From the NCBI RefSeq assembly GCF_023516455.1, contig NZ_JAMGBA010000002.1, positions 396,501 to 460,500 on the forward strand: a stretch of 64,000 nt of DNA, written 5' to 3'. The stretch is from Sphingomonas caseinilytica. Lineage in GTDB: Bacteria > Pseudomonadota > Alphaproteobacteria > Sphingomonadales > Sphingomonadaceae. Under the pieces are notes generated by a model, which was given only the letters and a program-made list of their open reading frames with translations, was not told the origin of the DNA and did no database searches. Positions within the stretch are counted from its first letter, which is position 1. The number at the start of each line of letters is the position of its first letter. Made by a program: the position numbers and the translations under genes. This document shows, piece after piece, positions 7,226-53,305 of this stretch.

Positions 7226-8341
7226 CTAGAGCCGCCGGGCCTCATGTTCAGCGATGACCGTACGGGTCACTGCTTGCATCAGGTCCTGCGACGCTCCGTC
7301 GGATTTATTGGGGACAGTCATGATCGCCATCGCATAGCCGGTCCCGTCGGGCGCGGTCAGGATGCCGATGTCGTTGATCCCGCCGACCCGGCCCTGGAAA
7401 TTCTGCCCGGTGCCGGTCTTGTGGCTCCACTTCCAGCCCGGCTTCAGGGCCGCCCGGACCCGCATTGCGCCCGTCTTCGTCTGCGACATGGTCGACAATA
7501 GCCGCTGGGTGGACGCCGGCGATAGCAATTCGCCGCGCTTCAGTCGGGCAATGGCCTGCGCGACCGAATGCGGCGCTGCGCCGTCGTAAGGGTCGGCGAC
7601 ATAACGTTCGAACGACGCTCTTCGGACTGACGTCGGCAAGGCGCTGCGCGCCTTATAAAAGGCATCGCCGATCGAGTAGCTTTGGCTCCAGATCAGCCCC
7701 GCGATCCGCGACTGCAGCGCTCGCTCGCCTTCGTAGAAGCGGATCGATCCCAATCTCTTGGCTTCGATCATATCGCGCACCGCCTGCGGTCCGCCGACCG
7801 ACCGCATCAGCTTGTCATTGGCGGTGTTGTCGCTCTCCGTGATGGCGGAAAACAGAAGTGCGCCGAGCGTCGTCGTGTGCCCGCCCTTGCCGAGAACCTT
7901 GGCCTGGATCGGCTGGTGGAAGAGCGTCAGGTCGTCACGGCCCAAGGTTACCCGATCGTTCAGGCTGACCCGGCCCTTGTCGACGGCGTCCATTGCCGTG
8001 ATCGCCACCCAAAGCTTGGAGCAGCTTTGCTGGGGGAAGAGGGATGTACCGTTATAATCGGCCTGCCAGCCGCCGTTGATCGAGTAGACCGAGATGCCGG
8101 CCTTGCCGTTGAAGGCGCGGCCAAGGGTGCTCAGGCGATCGCGCAATTCGGCCGGGGCGATCCTCGGCGGCTGTTGCGCCGGAGCAATCCTCGCCGGCTG
8201 CTGTGCCGGCGCGGTCTGCGGCCTGGCTGTCGATTCCGGCAAGGGCGCGAGGGGATCCGCGGCCTTTGGCTGAGCCGGGGCCAGTCCCGCCGTCGCCGCA
8301 ATTCCCGCACCCAACCACAAACGGCCAAACAGCGACGTCAT
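7226..8341 (-). CDS. Secreted class A beta-lactamase-like serine hydrolase
   Basis: 371 residues from the ATG at 8341, which gives a clean signal peptide (MTSLFGRLWLGAGIAATAGLAPAQ); a GTG at 8359 would add six residues. A Pro/Gln/Ala linker with two copies of a PAQQPxRIA nonapeptide follows. The penicilloyl-serine hydrolase motifs are present: SCSK (S106, K109), SDN (170-172) and KTG (308-310). In the omega-loop region ERALQ resembles the class A E166-x-x-L-N170 motif with Gln for Asn. It may be a true beta-lactamase or a peptidoglycan-related hydrolase; resistance cannot be asserted. Confidence 0.85.
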   Translation of the reverse strand: MTSLFGRLWLGAGIAATAGLAPAQPKAADPLAPLPESTARPQTAPAQQPARIAPAQQPPRIAPAELRDRLSTLGRAFNGKAGISVYSINGGWQADYNGTSLFPQQSCSKLWVAITAMDAVDKGRVSLNDRVTLGRDDLTLFHQPIQAKVLGKGGHTTTLGALLFSAITESDNTANDKLMRSVGGPQAVRDMIEAKRLGSIRFYEGERALQSRIAGLIWSQSYSIGDAFYKARSALPTSVRRASFERYVADPYDGAAPHSVAQAIARLKRGELLSPASTQRLLSTMSQTKTGAMRVRAALKPGWKWSHKTGTGQNFQGRVGGINDIGILTAPDGTGYAMAIMTVPNKSDGASQDLMQAVTRTVIAEHEARRL

Positions 8342-8455
8342 GACTTCAACGGCCCCCACTAAAATCGAAATCTTGCCAATGCCTTAGTTCTGCGCTGCTG
8401 AACCAGGGCTTGCGGATTTTCAGACTCGCAAATCAGGGGAGTCTTGCCAACCCCT

Positions 8456-9274
8456 TCAGGCGCCGGTCGGCGAAGAAACTGCGATTGCCGGGCTGCCAAG
8501 CAAGGCGGCGGATTCGATTTCGTCGAGCGCGCGATGCGCCGCGATGTAGCGACGGGCCCGACCGATCCATGGCGCGGCGCTGGCCGATCCCGGCAAGCGC
8601 ATCGTTTCCGCCAGCGCCGTATCGACCTGACCCGTCTCGAGGCGCGCCAGCGCACGGTTGTAACGGGCTTGCGGTTGGGGTGACGGCGTATCCGCCCGAT
8701 GGATCGATACGATCGACCCAAGCTCGCGCCGGAATCCGTCCCACCATCCCTCTTCCGGCCCACCTCTCCGGAGCGTGGGGCCAAGCGCCTGATATTCGGA
8801 AATCAGGCTGTCGAGACGAACCGGATCGCGCGACGCGGTGACGATGGTGGCGATGGCCGCCTGATGCTGCCCGCCGAAGCGCTGCATGAGGAGCGGCTCC
8901 AGATAGCCGAGAGTAACTCCGCGATCGATCGCGCGCCGCGCTGCGAATGCGACCAGCAGCGCGTCCGCCCGACCGGCAGAACCGGCAGCGGCCTGTGCCT
9001 GTCCCTCGATCGCAGCAAGCCGGGATTCCAAGGTCGAAATTCTGGCCGCATCGGCCGCCGTCAGCGTTTCGGCCGGTGCCGCGGGCTGGATCGTCGAGGC
9101 CGGCTGGCGAACGACCTGCAGCGGCTTACCGGGACCAACCCCGAAAAAGCGCGCGCCGGCATCCCAGCGCGACAGGCCCCAGGTCGCGAGTGCCGCTCCA
9201 ACCAGCAGCAACAGCAAGCCCCACGCGAAGCGCGCCGTCCAGGAGCTACCTTGTCGATATTGGCCAGCCGTCAT
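8456..9274 (-). CDS. Membrane-anchored protein downstream of hemD (mitofilin/HemY-position)
   Basis: 272 residues from the ATG at 9274, which overlaps the hemD stop in an ATGA. A single membrane helix lies at about 14-32, then a Pro/Ala linker, a coiled-coil-like segment (ISTLESRLAAIEGQAQAAA) and an alanine-rich helical domain to the end. In alphaproteobacteria a membrane protein of this architecture (COG4223, mitofilin-like) commonly follows hemD. The position is shared, but similarity to the family is weak by eye. Its function is unknown; it is the last gene of the hemC-hemD operon. Confidence 0.75.
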   Translation of the reverse strand: MTAGQYRQGSSWTARFAWGLLLLLVGAALATWGLSRWDAGARFFGVGPGKPLQVVRQPASTIQPAAPAETLTAADAARISTLESRLAAIEGQAQAAAGSAGRADALLVAFAARRAIDRGVTLGYLEPLLMQRFGGQHQAAIATIVTASRDPVRLDSLISEYQALGPTLRRGGPEEGWWDGFRRELGSIVSIHRADTPSPQPQARYNRALARLETGQVDTALAETMRLPGSASAAPWIGRARRYIAAHRALDEIESAALLGSPAIAVSSPTGA

Positions 9275-36849: not shown

Positions 36850-37707
36850 GTGCCCTCTACCGACACCGAACCGATGATCCATGAGGATGAACTCCCCGGG
36901 GAGGAAGGCAGCCTCAAGCCGAAGCCCGAATGGGAACCGCGATATCCAGGCTGCGGGCGGTTGGACGGCAAGGTCGCCATTGTTACCGGAGCTGACAGCG
37001 GGATTGGGCGTGCGGTCGCTGCACTCTATGCACGCGAAGGTGCGGACGTCGCAATTTTCTACCTCTGCGAGCATGAGGACGCCGAAAAGACCAAGGCCAT
37101 TGTCGAAGGCGAAGGACGCCGCGCAATCCTCGTCCCGGGCGATCTAGGCGATCCGAATTTCGCGCCGCGCGCCGTCCAGAAGGTAATCGATACGTTCGAC
37201 CGGCTGGACATCCTGGTCAACAATGCGGGCGAGCAGCATGCCGACAAGGATATTCGCGACATCACCGACGAGCAGTTGCGCCGCACCTTCCAGACCAACA
37301 TATTCTCGATGTTTTACCTGGTACAGGCCGCGCTGCCGCACCTGAAAGACGGTGCCTCGATCATCAATTGCACCTCGATCACCATGTATAAGGGAAGCCC
37401 CGAGCTCCTCGACTATTCGGCGACGAAGGGTGCCATCACGGCCTTTACCCGCTCCCTGTCGCAAAGCCTGATCGAGAAGGGCATTCGCGTGAACGGCGTG
37501 GCGCCCGGCCCGATCTGGACTCCGCTCAATCCGTCCGGCGGCCAGAAGCCCGAGGATATTCCGAAGTTTGGCAAGAACACGCCAATGGGTCGTCCGGGCT
37601 AGCCCAATGAAGTGGCGCCCAGCTTCCTGTTCCTTGCCTGCGATGATTCCAGCTACATGGCCGGCCAGGTCTTGCACCCCAATGGGGGAACGGTCGTCAA
37701 CGGCTGA
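36850..37707 (+). pseudogene. Short-chain dehydrogenase/reductase interrupted by an in-frame amber codon
   Basis: An SDR of the YghA/glucose-dehydrogenase-like group, starting at the GTG at 36850. The cofactor motif TGADSGIG (46-53), NNAG and the catalytic Y189-x-x-x-K193 are intact. At 37600-37602 a TAG ends the frame after residue 250 (MGRPG). The same frame continues for another 34 sense codons (PNEVAPSFLFLACDDSSYMA, then GQVLHPNGGTVVNG), the normal SDR C-terminus, to a TGA at 37705-37707. Relatives usually have Gln (CAG) at this place, so a single C-to-T change explains it. The product is either truncated, read through, or the base is a sequencing error. Confidence 0.88.
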
Positions 37708-37786
37708 CGGGACTTGTCCACAATCGGACAGCGTGAACAACCAATCCGGACATCGCCGCCCAAGCGGACCGATATTTCCCGGCCGA

Positions 37787-37825
37787 GGTGGTAATTTCCA
37801 CCAATGCTAGGTGGGAATTCCCGCC
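37787..37825. promoter_or_regulatory. Two 16-bp palindromes, candidate PspF enhancer sites
   Basis: GGTGGTAATTTCCACC (37787-37802) and GGTGGGAATTCCCGCC (37810-37825) are near-perfect palindromes sharing GGTGGnAATTnCC. Their centres are 23 bp apart and they sit about 80-118 bp upstream of the expected start of the sigma-54 promoter at 37878, where enhancer-binding proteins such as PspF bind. Confidence 0.7.
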
Positions 37826-37877
37826 AAATTATAATAATTTCTTATCAGCACTATTGAAAAACAACGATATTTTCCAA

Positions 37878-37894
37878 TTGGCACGCTCCCTGCA
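37878..37894 (+). promoter_or_regulatory. Sigma-54 promoter of the PspC operon
   Basis: TTGGCACGCTCCCTGCA has the -24 GG (37880-37881) and -12 GC (37892-37893) with exactly ten bases between, as sigma-54 requires, and TTGGCACG matches the -24 box fully. Transcription would start near 37905, about 38 bases before the first small gene. An A/T-rich bend-prone region separates it from the two palindromes. Confidence 0.85.
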
Positions 37895-37942
37895 ATAGGT
37901 GTGGAGAGCCCGATCAAGGGTTCGAAAAAGGGAGTATTTGAA

Positions 37943-38050
37943 ATGACCTTCTCGTTCGTTGACAGCCGGCAGATCGCTACCAGCCTCGCCGCCGCTCTGA
38001 TTACGTCGCTTCTGTTCGTTTCGGCCGCCACCTCGCTGCCGATCGCCTAA
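37943..38050 (+). CDS. 35-residue single-helix membrane protein, first gene of the psp-like operon
   Basis: MTFSFVDSRQIATSLAAALI followed by TSLLFVSAATSLPIA, with an AAGGGAG ribosome site. It is a short amphipathic N-terminus plus one membrane helix. It lies directly after the sigma-54 promoter and 30 bases before the PspC gene. I recall similar short proteins next to stress-operon genes in sphingomonads, but no family name can be given with certainty. Confidence 0.75.
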   Translation: MTFSFVDSRQIATSLAAALITSLLFVSAATSLPIA

Positions 38051-38080
38051 GACTGAACTCAATCGAAGAAAGACAAGGCC

Positions 38081-38269
38081 ATGAATGATCGCTTTGTCAT
38101 CAACCGCAACCGCGCCAAGGTCATGGGCGTGTGCGCCGGCCTCGCCGACTGGCTGAACGTAGACGTTCTCGTCGTCCGCCTCGGCGTCGTCATCGCCACG
38201 CTGATGACCGGCCCGGTTGCAATTTTGATCTATATCCTGACCGGTTGGCTGGCGAACGAGGACCGCTAA
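38081..38269 (+). CDS. pspC: PspC-domain membrane protein
   Basis: 62 residues that are almost exactly one PspC domain: RFVINRNRAKVMGVCAGLADWLNVDVLVVRLG (split over residues 3-34), then a membrane helix (VIATLMTGPVAILIYILTGWL). PspC takes part in the phage-shock envelope stress response at the inner membrane. It is shorter than enterobacterial PspC, which has an extra C-terminal region. pspA, pspB and pspF are not in the window. Confidence 0.92.
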   Translation: MNDRFVINRNRAKVMGVCAGLADWLNVDVLVVRLGVVIATLMTGPVAILIYILTGWLANEDR

Positions 38270-38362
38270 GCGGCTTTCGCCAGCCAACGCTCCATCTGTT
38301 CTTTAGGGGCCCGCTGTGGCACCATTGCCATTCGACCATGTTTCGACCTCAAGGAGTCGGCG

Positions 38363-38515
38363 ATGGAACGGCATGGAGACGAAGTACATCTCAATGAAAC
38401 CGAGGCAACCGGCGGCGTAAAAGCGCAAGGAGTGCGCTATGTGCTGGGCTTCTCGCTGCTGCTGGTCGTGATCGCCATGTCCGCAATCTGGATCCTGGGA
38501 TCCGTCCTCCGCTAA
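38363..38515 (+). CDS. 50-residue single-pass membrane protein
   Basis: MERHGDEVHLNETEATGGVK and AQGVRYVLGFSLLLVVIAMS precede AIWILGSVLR. The ATG at 38363 has CAAGGAG upstream. The N-terminal 20 residues are polar and acidic, and the rest is one membrane helix. The form is a short stress-linked membrane peptide. It lies 93 bases after pspC in the same direction and may belong to the same operon. Confidence 0.72.
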   Translation: MERHGDEVHLNETEATGGVKAQGVRYVLGFSLLLVVIAMSAIWILGSVLR

Positions 38516-38562
38516 CTCGCTCCGTCACCGCTGGACAATCAGGCATTTCGCCGGGCATCCCT

Positions 38563-39156
38563 ATGTCCATGGGGGGACATCGGCTCAACTGGCTTGAACG
38601 GCTGATTCACTGGATTCTTCTGCGATGGTTCGTCCGCAATGGATGGACGGTTAGTGGAACGCTTCCGCCCGATCTCAAGATCGTGATCATGGGCGCATCC
38701 CACACCAGCAACTGGGACTTTCTCGTTTTCCTTGGGGCAGTCCATTCGCTGAACCGCAAGGTTCATTTCATCGGCAAACACAGCCTTTTTCGATGGCCGC
38801 TGGGCGGTTTCATGCACGCCCTGGGTGGCATCCCGGTCGATCGCGGCTCACGGCAAGACCTCGTGAGCCAGGTCGTCGCGCAATTCGACGCGCATGACGA
38901 ATTCATCCTTGTCGTCGCCCCCGAAGGGACGCGTTCGAGGACGAAAGAATGGAAAACGGGATTCTACCAGATCGCACTGAAGGCGGGGGCGCCGATCGTC
39001 CCCGCCGGCCCGGATTTCCCTTCGAAACGTGCCGTATTCGGCGCCGCGATCCGGCCGACCGGCAATTACGCCGAAGACATGAAGCCGGCCTTCCACTTCT
39101 TCCGGACGATCGTGCCGCGCCACCCGGAGCGTTCCGATTTTCCGGACGGCTTCTAG
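38563..39156 (+). CDS. Lysophospholipid acyltransferase-family protein
   Basis: 197 residues. The PlsC-type motifs are present as H-T-S-N-W-D (HX4D) in MGASHTSNWDF and EGTRS in VAPEGTRSRTKEWKTGFYQIA. It probably transfers an acyl chain in phospholipid or related lipid synthesis at the inner membrane. Starts at ATG 38563 (or 38569). The stop shares CTAG (39153-39156) with the convergent zinc-finger gene. Confidence 0.9.
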   Translation: MSMGGHRLNWLERLIHWILLRWFVRNGWTVSGTLPPDLKIVIMGASHTSNWDFLVFLGAVHSLNRKVHFIGKHSLFRWPLGGFMHALGGIPVDRGSRQDLVSQVVAQFDAHDEFILVVAPEGTRSRTKEWKTGFYQIALKAGAPIVPAGPDFPSKRAVFGAAIRPTGNYAEDMKPAFHFFRTIVPRHPERSDFPDGF

Positions 39157-39446
39157 TCGAACAATTCCTCGAGGAAGCTCTTCCTGCGCTTGTGGGGCTT
39201 GCCGTGATAGTCGTGCCCATAATTCTGCTGAGGCGGCTGCGCACCCCAAGGCTGACCTTGCGGCTCGCGTGATACCGGCGCGGCCTGTTCGACTGCACCG
39301 CTCCGCTCGATGATCTTGTCGAGCTCGCCACGATCCAGCCATACGCCCCGGCAGCTCGGGCAATAGTCAATCTCGATGCCCTGACGCTCGCTCATCACCA
39401 GAGTGGCGCCGTCGATGGGGCAAGCCATGGGTCCGTTACTGGGCAT
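39153..39446 (-). CDS. zf-TFIIB-domain protein
   Basis: 97 residues from the ATG at 39446, with AGGAGAG upstream. The zinc ribbon is M-x-C-P-x-D at the start and DYCPSCRGVWLDRGELDKII, which is the zf-TFIIB domain. A Gln/Pro/Gly-rich low-complexity linker follows, then a basic tail KPHKRRKSFLEELFD. The role of these proteins is unknown. Confidence 0.9.
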   Translation of the reverse strand: MPSNGPMACPIDGATLVMSERQGIEIDYCPSCRGVWLDRGELDKIIERSGAVEQAAPVSREPQGQPWGAQPPQQNYGHDYHGKPHKRRKSFLEELFD

Positions 39447-39595
39447 CAATCTCTCCTGATCGGTACGTTCCTATCGGGTTCGCGGCGGATCCAACGGCTG
39501 GCAAGGACAATTCGACCAACCGAGCGGACCGGCCGCTGCTTGCAGGACGTGATAGGTAAGGCCTAGTGTCGCCGCGAGGCAGAGGGAGTCGATCG

Positions 39596-40120
39596 ATGAA
39601 GCGCTACATCCCATTCCTGGTTGCGGCTTTCATGTCGGCGCAACCCGCTTCGGCGGCATTGCCGGTTGGGGCCACGGCCCCCGATTTCCAGACGACGGGA
39701 GCACTCGCCGGTAAGCCGTTCAAGCTGCACCTCAAGGATCAGCTGCGCCACGGTCCGTTGGTTCTATACTTCTATCCCAAGGCCTTCACCCAAGGCTGCA
39801 CATTCGAAGCAAAGGCATTTGCCGATGCGATGCCGGAATTTCGCAAGGCAGGGGCCAGGGTCGTCGGCATGAGCGCCGATGATCTGGAAACGCTGAAGCG
39901 CTTCTCGACCGAAGCATGCCGCAGCGCCTTTCCCGTGGCGACAGCCTCGGCGCAGACCATCAAGGCCTATGATGTGGTGTTGAAGCAGAAGCCGGAACTT
40001 ACCGACCGCACCAGCTATGTCATCGATCGCAAGGGCAAGATCGTCATGGTCCATTCCGAACTCGACTGGAAGGATCATGTGGCAAAAACGCTTGCAGCCG
40101 TCAGGTCGTTAAAGCGCTAG
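39596..40120 (+). CDS. Exported BCP/PrxQ-type peroxiredoxin
   Basis: 174 residues from the ATG at 39596, with a signal peptide (MKRYIPFLVAAFMSAQPASA). The peroxidatic motif PKAFTQGCTF has Cys68 in the P-x-x-x-T-x-x-C context; Cys108 (TEACRSAFP) could be the resolving cysteine. It reduces peroxides, probably in the periplasm, using a thiol reductant. Confidence 0.92.
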   Translation: MKRYIPFLVAAFMSAQPASAALPVGATAPDFQTTGALAGKPFKLHLKDQLRHGPLVLYFYPKAFTQGCTFEAKAFADAMPEFRKAGARVVGMSADDLETLKRFSTEACRSAFPVATASAQTIKAYDVVLKQKPELTDRTSYVIDRKGKIVMVHSELDWKDHVAKTLAAVRSLKR

Positions 40121-40440
40121 ATTCTGGCGAATCGCCACTCTTGAACCTGTTGCCGCCAGTACGGCTGCTCGCCGCCAATCAATCGCTTCGTCGATAACTA
40201 CGGTTAACCGGATCGGCAAAATGGGACTCGGACCGGAACAATCTTTGTTTCGAGTCGTTTCCGCAACGAACCGCAGAAATGCGCTGGAATCCGTAGGCAG
40301 AGTTGATTTGCGTTAACCATCTAAGCACTTCAATAGCCACCATTTTCTGGGTTAATTTGACCCACCCGCCATTAACCACTTCCGTTAATGGGCAAATGGA
40401 GTCACCTTCATGACGATGATTTATCGGGGAGGGGTGCCTC
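40121..40440. promoter_or_regulatory. Intergenic regulatory region with repeated TTAAC motifs
   Basis: No gene is recognisable. The A/T-rich stretch carries GTTAACC at 40203-40209 and 40312-40318, a GTTAA at 40351, and a perfect 8-bp inverted repeat CCATTAAC-N7-GTTAATGG (40369-40391). An overlapping TGGGT-N7-ACCCA repeat lies at 40348-40364. TTAACC is the CtrA half-site in alphaproteobacteria, so this is a candidate cell-cycle-regulated promoter for the gene at 40441. Confidence 0.55.
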
Positions 40441-41208
40441 GTGGCTAAGCAATTGATTGGAGCGGCGATTGTCGGCGCCTGTTTGGCGGCCGCGACGCCT
40501 GCCTGGGCGGACAGCGTCGAAGCTGCGGCAACGCCGACGACCGCTTCCGCTTCGGATAAGTATAGCCCGGTTGTTATCAACAAGCGGGGAATGCAGCTGA
40601 GGAAGTCCAGCCGTCCCCTTTCGTTGGACGCGCCTTCCAGTCCGGATGTCTTCGGTACGGTTGCTTTGAACGCCGGCGTGACCTTCTACGACGCGCGCTT
40701 TCGCCGCGTCGCATCAACCGACAACAAGGACCCCCTTGTCTTGAGCCTCGCACAGGCCGCTGTCGGTCTCGATCCCGTTGCAAAGCTCCAGATGGTCCAG
40801 CAGGAAGTCAATCAGCGCGTGCGCTGGATGCACGATCTCGACAATATGGGCGTTGCCGATTTCTGGGCCAACGCTGGAGAAACTTTGCGCCGCGGTAGTG
40901 GAGACAGCGAAGATATCGCGATTGCCAAAATGCAGGTGTTGAAGGCTGCCGGATTCAGCCCGAAGGACCTCTACATCAGCATCGGAAAGCATAATGTGCG
41001 CGGGGCACATGTCATATTGCTGGCTCGAGCCGCAGGACGCTTCTACGTGCTCGACGACACGCTGCAGAATATAACCACGCCCGCAGAGCATGCCCGGTTC
41101 ACGCCGGTCATGACCCTGGGCCAAGGTGCCAGCTGGATTCACGGCAAGCGGGTTGCTGGCCCGCGGGTCGCAAGCACGTCCGGTACGACGAAGACTGCCG
41201 CAAAATAA
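40441..41208 (+). CDS. Transglutaminase-like cysteine peptidase family protein with Ser in place of Cys
   Basis: 255 residues from the GTG at 40441, with a signal peptide (about 1-23). The region RRGSGDSEDIAIAKMQVLKA corresponds to the G-D-C-E-D-Y-x-x-x-K active site of BTLCP/LapG periplasmic proteases. Ser156 replaces the catalytic Cys; the His (GAH190V) and Asp (VLD205D) are present. LapG cleaves surface adhesins under c-di-GMP control. This copy is probably inactive or altered, perhaps a binding protein. No LapD homologue is adjacent, though a PilZ gene lies 3.4 kb away. Confidence 0.82.
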   Translation: MAKQLIGAAIVGACLAAATPAWADSVEAAATPTTASASDKYSPVVINKRGMQLRKSSRPLSLDAPSSPDVFGTVALNAGVTFYDARFRRVASTDNKDPLVLSLAQAAVGLDPVAKLQMVQQEVNQRVRWMHDLDNMGVADFWANAGETLRRGSGDSEDIAIAKMQVLKAAGFSPKDLYISIGKHNVRGAHVILLARAAGRFYVLDDTLQNITTPAEHARFTPVMTLGQGASWIHGKRVAGPRVASTSGTTKTAAK

Positions 41209-48959: not shown

Positions 48960-49048
48960 CGGCGACGAGCAGAAGCAAGCGATTGCGAAGAGATCATGAG
49001 CTTGTGTTGCCAACTGAAACACAGAGCCATTTCAGGGCCATTTAGGCG

Positions 49049-49558
49049 TCAGGTAATATGAATAACCCAGTTTGTCGCGCGATCACGGGAAAGTGCCAAG
49101 TTTAGTACGGAGGCGAGTTTTCGAGACTCAGTGGGTTTTGAAACCAGCAACATAACATTGTTATCGTGCTGTTCTACCACCTCGTATCTCACGCGTGCTG
49201 GAAGCATGTCAGCATCCACCGACAAAGGCGCTGTATCGATAGAATGCCATGCTATCGGGTCGCGTGTATATAACGATTTCGTTTTCGATAGATGATTGAA
49301 GAAGTGGTCGCGACTGCTGCCGGGATTGTCGAATCTGACAACGTGCCGAAGGTCCAAAAGGTACTTTGGTTGAGTTACGTCGAGCAATTGCCTCAGATGA
49401 ACTCCGTCGATCTCATCCATTGCGACGATAACAATTTGCTTCAGTGCATTATGTTGCAGATCGAAGCTGAATTGCCCCGCATCTGACAAGCGAGGTCGTA
49501 CAGCACGCTTGCCCTTTGAGCGCTTCTTTTGCGTTAACTCTAACCCATGGTCGGTCAT
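49049..49558 (-). CDS. Unknown partner protein coupled to the AvcD-like deaminase
   Basis: 169 residues, no confident family. It starts at the ATG at 49558 inside an ATGA overlap with the deaminase stop, so the two are translationally coupled. A basic N-terminus (KKRSKGKRAVRPR) precedes a beta-alpha-beta unit (QIVIVAMDEIDGVHLRQLLD, then KYLLDLRHVVRF) and SSRDHFFNHL. A later beta-alpha segment is NNVMLLVSKPTESRKLASVL. The order and the DLR-x-x-x-RF motif are weakly reminiscent of DUF488, which is inference. Codon and base use are clearly richer in A/T than the neighbours, as in the deaminase. It is a candidate accessory, regulator or antitoxin. Confidence 0.75.
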   Translation of the reverse strand: MTDHGLELTQKKRSKGKRAVRPRLSDAGQFSFDLQHNALKQIVIVAMDEIDGVHLRQLLDVTQPKYLLDLRHVVRFDNPGSSRDHFFNHLSKTKSLYTRDPIAWHSIDTAPLSVDADMLPARVRYEVVEQHDNNVMLLVSKPTESRKLASVLNLALSRDRATNWVIHIT

Positions 49559-51222
49559 AAATTTTTTGTGAGTGCCGCTTCAATCTCAGGGTAAGCTGAG
49601 ACGAGAGGGGACCACTCGTCACCCCATTCTGGTTCGCCGATTTTCATATCACCGGTAACCTTATCCTTCAGGTCCCGGACCTTTTCAAATGCTTTGAGAT
49701 AGAGCCGTGGAGCCACTCCGACGAACGGTTTGAAAAGCACTCGTCCTCGGTCTTCTTCTGGATCGATCGCGCGCTCTTCAGAGATAGATAACGTGCTTGG
49801 CGGCACCCAATCTGCTTCTGAGACGGCTATGGCGTCGATGTGCAAACTTAACGCAAGACTCTTAGGATAGGGCTCAATGAACTGAACTTCATATACACCT
49901 GCGCTAACTATGTGGCGTGCGCAGTAGTGGCAGGGAAATGTCGTCACAAATAACCGAGTTCCGACCGTCGACGTACCCTCTCGTCCAGCTGAAAGGAGCG
50001 CGTCCATTTCTGCATGGACGGCTCTGCTGAACTCGATCAGGCCACCTAAGCGCGTCTTCCTGATCTTGGCTCGCAAGCTCTCTTTTTCACCTGCCGGAGT
50101 GACGTTGAGCTCAGGTATCTGCTCAATCAGTTCGTCAATAATGGCATTCTGCTCACGATTATTGCTGCAAAATGCTGGATTGCGAAATGCACATCGATGT
50201 TCGTGCGTGCGCTTGTTTCCCGAAAATTGCTCTCCGTAAACTCCGCCTCCTGCTCTCGGAACTTCATTGGTTCCCGTGGAGACAACCGTTCCGTAGTGAT
50301 CGACAAGCGCTGCACCAACTTGCCTCGATAGGCAGGCGCTTCTGACGCGCGCTGAGTGAGCGTGATGCATCGCAGTCTCTTCGATGGTCGGCCTAACGAG
50401 CCGGTCATGAGTTACGATGCTAACTAGTCGGGCAAGGGGCTCCTCTAGATAGCCATTTTCGCCCGTCGGATCATTGAACGTGTTGTCGACGAAAAAATCA
50501 GCCTCGTAAAAGGCATTCGTCACATGTTGTCCGTAGGCTTTTTTCTCATCGTCCGCATCACGTGCGATGAAATCTTTTACCCTACTGACAAGCGCGGGAT
50601 CCTGCTTTTCAGGGTTTGTCAGGAATTTCCCAATGATACGTTCTTCACGAACGCTCTCTTCACACACAACTCCGACAAGAGCGAACGAAGGTCCATAAGC
50701 TCGGCGAAACAGTTGAGTTTCCGCAGGATGCCTTATCGAGTCGATCAGCCATGCACGCTTAGTCTCGTCTGGCTGAACGGCCTGGCCTTGTACGAAGTCG
50801 GCACCAGTTAGACCTGCGCGGCGGCGCGCAATTGCAGCGAGGCATAGTCGTCCTACCCCGGCAGGGTCAGATTTTCTGATTTCATCGCCGAGATTCTGCA
50901 GCATAGGCACACTGTCGATGGGCCGCATGTCAGGAGGCGGAACGTCGCGACCGTGGGCCTCTGCCCAGCTCTTAATAAGCGCACTCATCTTTATAACCTG
51001 GCAGTCGTAACCGCGTGCTTCACAAGCCTTTTTAAGCGAGTCTATTGCACGGCTACCGCCCGCACCCACGGGTCCCACAACTCCAAACCAAATTTCATTG
51101 GATCGGATACCTTTGATGATGGTCTTGGCATCATCTTGTTGGTTTGCATTCGCTGCTCCAACGTGAGCAGCGGTCGACGCCTGCGCCATATCTTCATTAC
51201 CCCCAATTACGCGGACGGGCAT
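49555..51222 (-). CDS. AvcD-like anti-phage dCTP deaminase family protein
   Basis: 555 residues with the two-domain form of AvcD. Residues about 43-270 are P-loop-kinase-like; the Walker A position reads GVVGPVGAGGS (G50-S57) with Gly in place of the usual Lys. Residues about 285-465 are a cytidine/deoxycytidylate deaminase domain with the zinc motif HAE (H403, E405 catalytic) and PCHYC (C431, C434). Known AvcD proteins deplete dCTP and dCMP after phage infection, usually held inactive by the AvcI RNA. Starts are the ATG at 51222 or at 51189 (after GGGGGT). It lies 79 bases after thiC on the same strand. Confidence 0.88.
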   Translation of the reverse strand: MPVRVIGGNEDMAQASTAAHVGAANANQQDDAKTIIKGIRSNEIWFGVVGPVGAGGSRAIDSLKKACEARGYDCQVIKMSALIKSWAEAHGRDVPPPDMRPIDSVPMLQNLGDEIRKSDPAGVGRLCLAAIARRRAGLTGADFVQGQAVQPDETKRAWLIDSIRHPAETQLFRRAYGPSFALVGVVCEESVREERIIGKFLTNPEKQDPALVSRVKDFIARDADDEKKAYGQHVTNAFYEADFFVDNTFNDPTGENGYLEEPLARLVSIVTHDRLVRPTIEETAMHHAHSARVRSACLSRQVGAALVDHYGTVVSTGTNEVPRAGGGVYGEQFSGNKRTHEHRCAFRNPAFCSNNREQNAIIDELIEQIPELNVTPAGEKESLRAKIRKTRLGGLIEFSRAVHAEMDALLSAGREGTSTVGTRLFVTTFPCHYCARHIVSAGVYEVQFIEPYPKSLALSLHIDAIAVSEADWVPPSTLSISEERAIDPEEDRGRVLFKPFVGVAPRLYLKAFEKVRDLKDKVTGDMKIGEPEWGDEWSPLVSAYPEIEAALTKNL

Positions 51223-51257
51223 CTTTACCGAGCAGACAATACTTTGCCGTCAATTAG

Positions 51258-51286
51258 ATCGTTGTGAATTACGGCGAACAGGTCAA
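51258..51286 (-). promoter_or_regulatory. Weak candidate promoter of the deaminase operon
   Basis: On the minus strand TTGACC (51286-51281) and AACGAT (51263-51258) are 17 bases apart. The -35 is good and the -10 poor. A 4-bp hairpin CCGA-TAT-TCGG lies just upstream at 51288-51298, after the thiC stop. The island could instead be co-transcribed with thiC. Confidence 0.25.
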
Positions 51287-51301
51287 GCCGAATATCGGAA
51301 C

Positions 51302-53305
<2,004 letters not shown>

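Follow-up and report, generated by a model that had tools for sequence, protein, structure and literature searches.

A DUF488-like partner with a putative clamp-binding tail encoded beside an AvcD-type dCTP deaminase in Sphingomonas caseinilytica

Two overlapping genes and their conserved pairing

In Sphingomonas caseinilytica, two overlapping genes on the minus strand were analysed within a 64,000-nucleotide stretch of contig NZ_JAMGBA010000002.1 (hereafter the window), one encoding an AvcD-type anti-phage dCTP deaminase of 555 residues (49555..51222) and the other a partner protein of 169 residues (49049..49558). According to the open reading frame (ORF) coordinates, the avcD stop and the partner start share an ATGA overlap (49555..49558, minus strand), which suggests translational coupling. 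Both ORFs lie where an earlier reading of the letters alone (the sequence-only reading) had placed them, and the motifs named there were found. The 555-residue protein narrowly passes NF041025, the curated model for anti-phage dCTP deaminases (405.9 bits against a cut-off of 400), and matches the PADLOC dCTPase model (E 9.3e-151). It carries a variant P-loop, GPVGAGGS, that lacks the lysine (residues 50-57; 51052..51075, minus strand) and two deaminase motifs that were located by sequence and alignment, HAE (residues 403-405; 50008..50016, minus strand) and PCHYC (residues 430-434; 49921..49935, minus strand). G50, P51, G53 and G55 of the P-loop are invariant in one AvcD alignment (A2), and the HAE and PCxxC zinc/catalytic motifs are invariant in two (A2 and A5). 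By these matches the protein is classed as an AvcD-type anti-phage dCTP deaminase, with deamination and phage protection assigned by family. An alternative start at Met12 (51189), directly preceded by a G-rich stretch, may be the true one.

AvcD is reported to remove dCTP and dCMP and, in the studied system, to be restrained by the AvcI RNA until transcription shut-off frees it (PMC10511110). The window protein resembles the AvcID type III toxin-antitoxin systems, as far as they are described in the sections consulted (PMC10511110, PMC12409362), in its enzyme family, its HAE and PCxxC motifs and its degenerate P-loop. It differs in having a downstream protein partner whose gene overlaps avcD, while an upstream AvcI was not detected, its absence not being established. 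A nucleotide-depleting effector with a second, regulatory gene is known from Clover, a pair of the dGTPase CloA and CloB, but the enzymes there are unrelated and CloB is reported to make a nucleotide signal (PMC12265719); Clover is defined by an HD-domain dNTPase with a nucleotidyltransferase, whereas the window has a deaminase with a DUF488-like protein.

The sequence-only reading had called the partner unknown, and searches of Pfam, PADLOC, NCBIfam and PHROGs gave no match to it at E values up to 1. The partner appears to be under purifying selection, with dN/dS values of 0.03-0.28 in six of eight partner pairs; the other two pairs were not computable, their synonymous sites being saturated. 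An ATGA or -8 overlap is possible in most of the relatives examined. Where the end of avcD is intact, the partner start can lie -23 to +2 nt from the avcD stop, a range that partly depends on the choice of start codon; in L058, in which avcD is broken, it lies about 50 nt past avcD.

Because a search with the single partner sequence overlooked the partner in all 99 other relatives, loci were sampled through their AvcD, whether or not a partner was present. Four clade AvcDs used to scan a genome collection yielded 44 loci, and the rest came from plasmids and whole genomes, some of the whole-genome loci having been found via the partner itself. When distinct loci whose AvcD scores at least 380 bits against the clade model are counted as clade loci (the scores of the pieces being added up where avcD is broken, in L020, L058 and L061), the partner adjoins avcD in 46 of 48. 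The remaining two are L055, where the contig ends inside avcD, and L060, where avcD is cut short. None of the 21 loci at or below 340 bits carries the partner. In an IQ-TREE phylogeny of 61 AvcDs, the 41 partner-bearing rows form one side of a branch (support 99/97; recovered in 98% of bootstrap trees), outside which the other 20 fall. This tree was limited to AvcDs of at least 450 residues, shorter AvcDs and AvcD pieces, the L064 fragment and the duplicates L001, L003, L065, L040, L032, L067 and L018 having been dropped. Members of the partner-bearing group come from Alpha- and Gammaproteobacteria, Magnetococcales and Acidobacteriota.

Profile searches with the partner gave a consistent picture. 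Among 385 genomes of the class, five matched, including the window's own, all beside avcD. Among 398 genomes of the phylum there were four strong matches outside the window (three genomes, E at most 4.5e-21), all overlapping avcD; one of these is the contig of L046, and some such contigs are also among the 48 loci. For the eleven weak phylum matches (E no better than 1.7e-5), the fetched stretch contained no avcD; four of these matches are DUF488 ORFs, one in the window's own genome. Thus, the pairing of avcD with the partner is conserved. The proposal of a variant AvcD system that includes a protein partner is borne out by the 46 loci, the single tree group and the strong matches found only beside avcD, and wide occurrence of the partner with unrelated genes was not seen in the class and phylum profile searches. 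The same reading had regarded AvcDs of close relatives without the partner as evidence against it. One such case was found in the genus (L005, AvcD 38% identical), although it belongs to another AvcD branch and has its own small downstream ORF. A clade AvcD on a viral contig, taken up below, also lacks the partner.

Core and tail of the partner

The partner is predicted to consist of a disordered tail and a folded core, on the evidence of alignment, AlphaFold2 and hhalign. In an AlphaFold2 model built with 37 aligned partners, 95 of 169 residues reach a pLDDT of at least 90, mostly in the core, whereas residues 1-38 are of low confidence (pLDDT about 60-67). The core is a predicted alpha/beta domain (residues 39-169; 49052..49444, minus strand), whose DxR motif (D69, R71) and Y97 are its most conserved residues. 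The Pfam family DUF488 (PF04343) gives a weak match, under the cut-off, in three of 37 members (best E 0.016) and none in the window partner. When the partner core was compared by hhalign with 19 DUF488 proteins of the order, a probability of 94.2% (E 1.2e-7, a single comparison) was obtained, against 0.1% for AvcD as control. The core is accordingly described here as DUF488-like at the level of sequence profiles. It shares a related core with DUF488 but stays under the Pfam cut-off, has an additional tail with a clamp-type motif, and by eye does not contain the C...CHR stretch that DUF488 sequences have near the C-terminus.

Two short motifs stand out in the tail. The first is a conserved LxLV motif, whose place is taken in the window by LELT (residues 6-9; 49532..49543, minus strand; alignment A4, columns 33-36), and which may form a strand that docks AvcD. 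The second, close to it, is a hexapeptide of the sliding-clamp-binding type, QFSFDL in the window (residues 29-34; 49457..49474, minus strand), identified by alignment and a weaker match than those of relatives, which have QLEFDL, QLELDL, QLSLPF or QLSLF. The Q of this motif is 92% conserved in a tail that is otherwise variable.

The motif was counted with the patterns Q..[LMI][FL] or Q..[LFM].[LFYM], all of which were composed after the motif had been noticed. It occurs in 37 of 42 non-redundant partner tails (44 sequences minus two that are at least 80% alike), against a mean of 3.2 and a maximum of 10 in 5000 shuffles of the tails. In the comparison sets it is found in seven of 42 cores, though these are three times longer, in 32 of 759 AvcD windows of 45 residues and in one of 19 tails of ordinary DUF488 proteins. 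The position of the Q varies from 21 to 60, while its distance from an invariant core Arg stays within 40-45 residues across the 34 motif-bearing rows among 37 aligned. Twenty of the rows have a pentapeptide (Q 20/20, L 15/20, S or D 14/20, L 20/20, F 20/20) that fits QL[S/D]LF, and 14 aligned rows have the hexapeptide form. QL[S/D]LF is reported as an established clamp binder (PMC9690074; PMC12309361) and QLSLPL as a tight one (PMC12309361), and clamp binding by QLxLF is also described in PMC4549789. At family level, the tail is a putative clamp-client tail that bears its motif in a segment predicted to be flexible, and binding to the clamp would be its function.

A similar N-terminal QxxLxL-type peptide is found in Hda and other beta-clamp clients, and an Hda-like ORF of the host (a TIGR03420 match under the cut-off) has QIALPL near its N-terminus. 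Unlike Hda, the partner has no AAA+ domain, and the client would here be a defence adaptor. Clamp-type motifs within AvcD itself were also considered; they occur in 12 of 75 AvcDs (3/37, 7/15 and 2/23 by group), half of them being QADFF inside a folded domain, and this candidate was set aside.

Fusions, mini-partners and the surroundings of avcD

In four relatives the partner is fused to a short-Argonaute subunit (L020:6552-8369, L037:7565-9514, L051:3978-5933 and L068:1411-3402). The first 185-193 residues or so of the fusion proteins are the partner, followed by the PADLOC class I Aga TIR subunit (TIR-APAZ). avcD lies upstream of the fusion gene in all four, and pAgo_I follows in L020, L037 and L051, L068 ending earlier. 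By their gene content these four are composite dCTP-deaminase/short-Argonaute loci, and fusion to TIR-APAZ fits an adaptor module. The fused Argonaute system (PADLOC: Aga_TIR-PNTD1-PNTD2 with pAgo_I) is presumably the one named SPARTA. The window pair is linked to it through the four fusions, in which avcD stands upstream and the partner forms an extra N-terminal domain, but no such system lies beside the window pair; the window partner has no TIR or APAZ match, and the combination of TIR-APAZ and a short pAgo that defines SPARTA was not found in its locus.

Outside the clade, AvcDs from viral contigs, a Pantoea plasmid, Sediminibacterium, another species of the window's genus and genome G1116 have ORFs of 55-94 residues at the avcD stop (L005, L063, L103, L187-L196, L205 and L221), which are called mini-partners here. 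Their motifs include QLELDF, QLSLDF, QLDLF, QLELPI and similar forms, after which most of them show, by eye, a VVxF-like strand and then a helix-like end. In 56 loci, with ORFs of 50-110 residues and a pattern composed after the mini-partners had been seen, the motif lies in the first 50 residues of 14 of the 31 small ORFs that sit at the avcD stop. Farther downstream the figure is seven of 172, and for the opposite strand it is 37 of 813. Fisher's test against the downstream set gives p 1e-8, or 1e-6 without the three loci that prompted the idea; L192, in which the motif precedes the first ATG, was left uncounted. A profile comparison of mini-partners with the partner aligned 12 columns, comprising the motif only (2.2%), none of the mini-partners reached the inclusion threshold of the partner model, and seven that were scanned had no Pfam match above the cut-off. 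In a quick tree of 75 rows (the clade thinned to 23, with duplicates and remote rows removed), the AvcDs with mini-partners make up two groups (SH-aLRT 99 each), while a third group of 18 E. coli/Vibrio-type AvcDs has neither kind of partner.

Two further kinds of small downstream ORF were observed. In L104 (4130-4390), a Rhodococcus AvcD is followed by an ORF of 86 residues with the end QTQLPLLGTLSDH, which recalls the ImuB-type clamp motif QLPLWG. In L006-L009, which belong to the window's family and to another AvcD branch, ORFs of 48-71 residues near the avcD stop are mutually alike (RFxxLS..., by eye) and have no clamp motif.

No Rfam RNA family match was obtained in the window. The regions upstream of avcD showed nothing in common apart from near-copies, and the same comparison also failed on most canonical loci, where it yielded one similar pair only. 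Since this comparison had no working positive control, absence of AvcI is not claimed. Canonical upstream DNA aligned poorly, and folding of single sequences gave nothing remarkable (z 0.02 for L107 and -1.30 for the window).

The position of AvcI in canonical loci was also inspected for ORFs. An ORF of 50-78 residues lies there in 11 of the 13 E. coli/Vibrio-type loci with upstream DNA (L100, L101, L105, L107, L199, L201, L207, L211, L216, L222 and L223, not L204 or L214), a count that leaves out five such loci whose upstream sequence is lacking. By eye, most of these ORFs have in common a strand resembling VVxF and a basic helix, and they end in a sequence like A.KIxW. The frame is kept over 61 codons between L207 and L211, with a dN/dS of 0.40. 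The ORF of L105 is 171 nt long, equal to the minimum reported for AvcI (PMC10511110). AvcI may be a coding RNA. A weak hhalign match of the canonical upstream ORFs to the mini-partners (16%, E 0.0015) is a lead only.

The pair lies on an inserted cassette (48961..51314, no strand assigned), which was delimited by blastn against L164 and the thiC loci of the genus and is of low GC. The similarity of the window DNA to G014, a relative of the same genus, ends at 51315, the end of thiC, and restarts at 48960, the end of a gene that we take to be PhnA-like. Between the thiC stop and the first start of avcD lie 79 nt; no further cassette gene follows the partner. In 1000-base windows, GC is 0.50-0.54 over about 49000-51500 against 0.59-0.68 in the flanks. 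The description of the pair as the only clearly A/T-richer coding stretch is fair in terms of GC, but it does not hold absolutely, since 37000-41000 is also low (0.56-0.59, the next-lowest of the window). avcD was found in none of the fetched stretches of 29 further thiC loci of the genus (L125-L153), several of which are incomplete. In L164 (G014:C2:191500-200500), thiC is followed, by eye, by a nucleotidyltransferase gene, a DUF262-like gene and another gene. The site after thiC is possibly an insertion hotspot for defence cassettes. Differing avcD loci of the family (L004, L006 and L008) were seen by eye near the end of a uvrA-like gene, which is perhaps a second hotspot. Elsewhere, multiubiquitin and ThiF genes lie close to the pair on two plasmids of different orders (L002 and L019). 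In L061, whose avcD is broken into several frames, an ORF resembling by eye part of the type I restriction protein HsdR (8128-9072) overlaps the partner with its start.

A proposed adaptor to the sliding clamp and its rivals

The explanation that we consider best, with a probability of about one half, is that the locus is a two-gene AvcD variant in which the partner is an adaptor coupling AvcD to replication clamps. Translational coupling, binding to the clamp and to AvcD, replisome targeting and defence are what we infer for the window pair. AvcD would deaminate dCTP and dCMP, as its family does, and translational coupling would ensure that the partner is made together with it. The partner would combine a DUF488-derived core with a disordered N-terminal tail, in which the LxLV-type strand would dock AvcD and the second motif would bind the bacterial sliding clamp. 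AvcD would in this manner be tethered to DNA-loaded beta clamps, and dCTP would be destroyed, and dUTP made, where DNA polymerase draws on the pool. Replicating phage DNA would be starved while the rest of the cell would pay less. Besides the conserved pairing and the motif of the tail, two independent lines speak for this adaptor explanation, the TIR-APAZ fusions and the mini-partners that bear the motif.

Several observations weigh against it. The window's own QFSFDL is off consensus at position 4, the motif is missing in five of the 42 partners (L037, L051, L043, L056 and L057), and its patterns followed its discovery. The avcD of the fused locus L020 is broken into two ORFs. Canonical E. 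coli/Vibrio-type AvcDs have no such downstream partner, and neither has the viral contig L206, whose AvcD falls within the clade, at an open fork and on a long branch. (In L206:706-4542, two genes precede AvcD, which by eye are Gp37/Gp68-type phage-like and three-Cys-motif-partner-like.) Finally, the evidence does not separate tethering from clamp-gated inhibition.

Such inhibition is the main rival, and we consider it rather unlikely. The partner would be an antitoxin that keeps AvcD inactive in place of AvcI and frees it on disturbance of the replisome, comparable to the way in which Hda senses clamps loaded on DNA. This would suit the overlapping genes and the clamp-type motif, the restraint of AvcD by AvcI reported for studied systems (PMC10511110), and the gap of only 79 nt between thiC and avcD with no Rfam RNA, although the AvcI comparisons, lacking a working control, leave the absence of AvcI unestablished. 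The partner lies downstream of avcD, while most antitoxins are placed otherwise, and its fusion to a TIR-APAZ subunit is more easily read as that of an adaptor. These two points make us lean toward an adaptor over an antitoxin, neither being decisive.

It is improbable that the Q-containing tail binds AvcD by strand addition and merely resembles a clamp motif. An LxLV strand does lie in the same tail, and AvcD is the constant companion of the partner. However, the tails alternate between two forms, each of which matches clamp-binding peptides reported in PMC12309361, and this motif is just what the mini-partners have in common with the partner.

Still less probable is a second toxin that jams the clamp and blocks replication while AvcD depletes nucleotides. 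The model for this is SocB of SocAB, a toxin that is reported to bind the clamp through such a motif (PMC9690074), and the partner has a motif of that type. SocB, however, is itself the toxin and has its own antitoxin (PMC9690074), whereas the window cassette has no gene past the partner and no strong partner match lies away from AvcD. That the two genes are mere neighbours carried on a single inserted cassette is hardly credible, given the 41 of 41 rows in one tree group across Alpha- and Gammaproteobacteria, Magnetococcales and Acidobacteriota and the purifying selection on the partner.

A broader proposal, which goes beyond the adaptor explanation for the window and is put forward tentatively, is that AvcD enzymes act in general as a defence directed at the replisome. 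Two or more types of partner, DUF488-like proteins and mini-partners of 55-94 residues, kin only in the motif, would have acquired or kept a clamp motif beside avcD, and one type would have been built into SPARTA. The canonical AvcI locus would encode a short protein of similar design, with a VVxF strand and a helix, and not RNA only.

The clamp-type motif, the DUF488 kinship and the Argonaute fusions go beyond the sequence-only reading. In the part of the open-licence PMC literature that was covered, nothing was found that describes a protein partner for AvcD, a clamp-binding protein as part of an AvcD system or a TIR-APAZ fusion linked to a deaminase. Nucleotide-depletion defences drain a pool that is needed throughout the cell. 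If the adaptor explanation is true, a clamp-binding partner could place such an enzyme at replication forks, and one glutamine should decide the matter. The regulation of AvcD would then widen from an RNA antitoxin to proteins, and dCTP depletion would be linked to short-Argonaute TIR systems.

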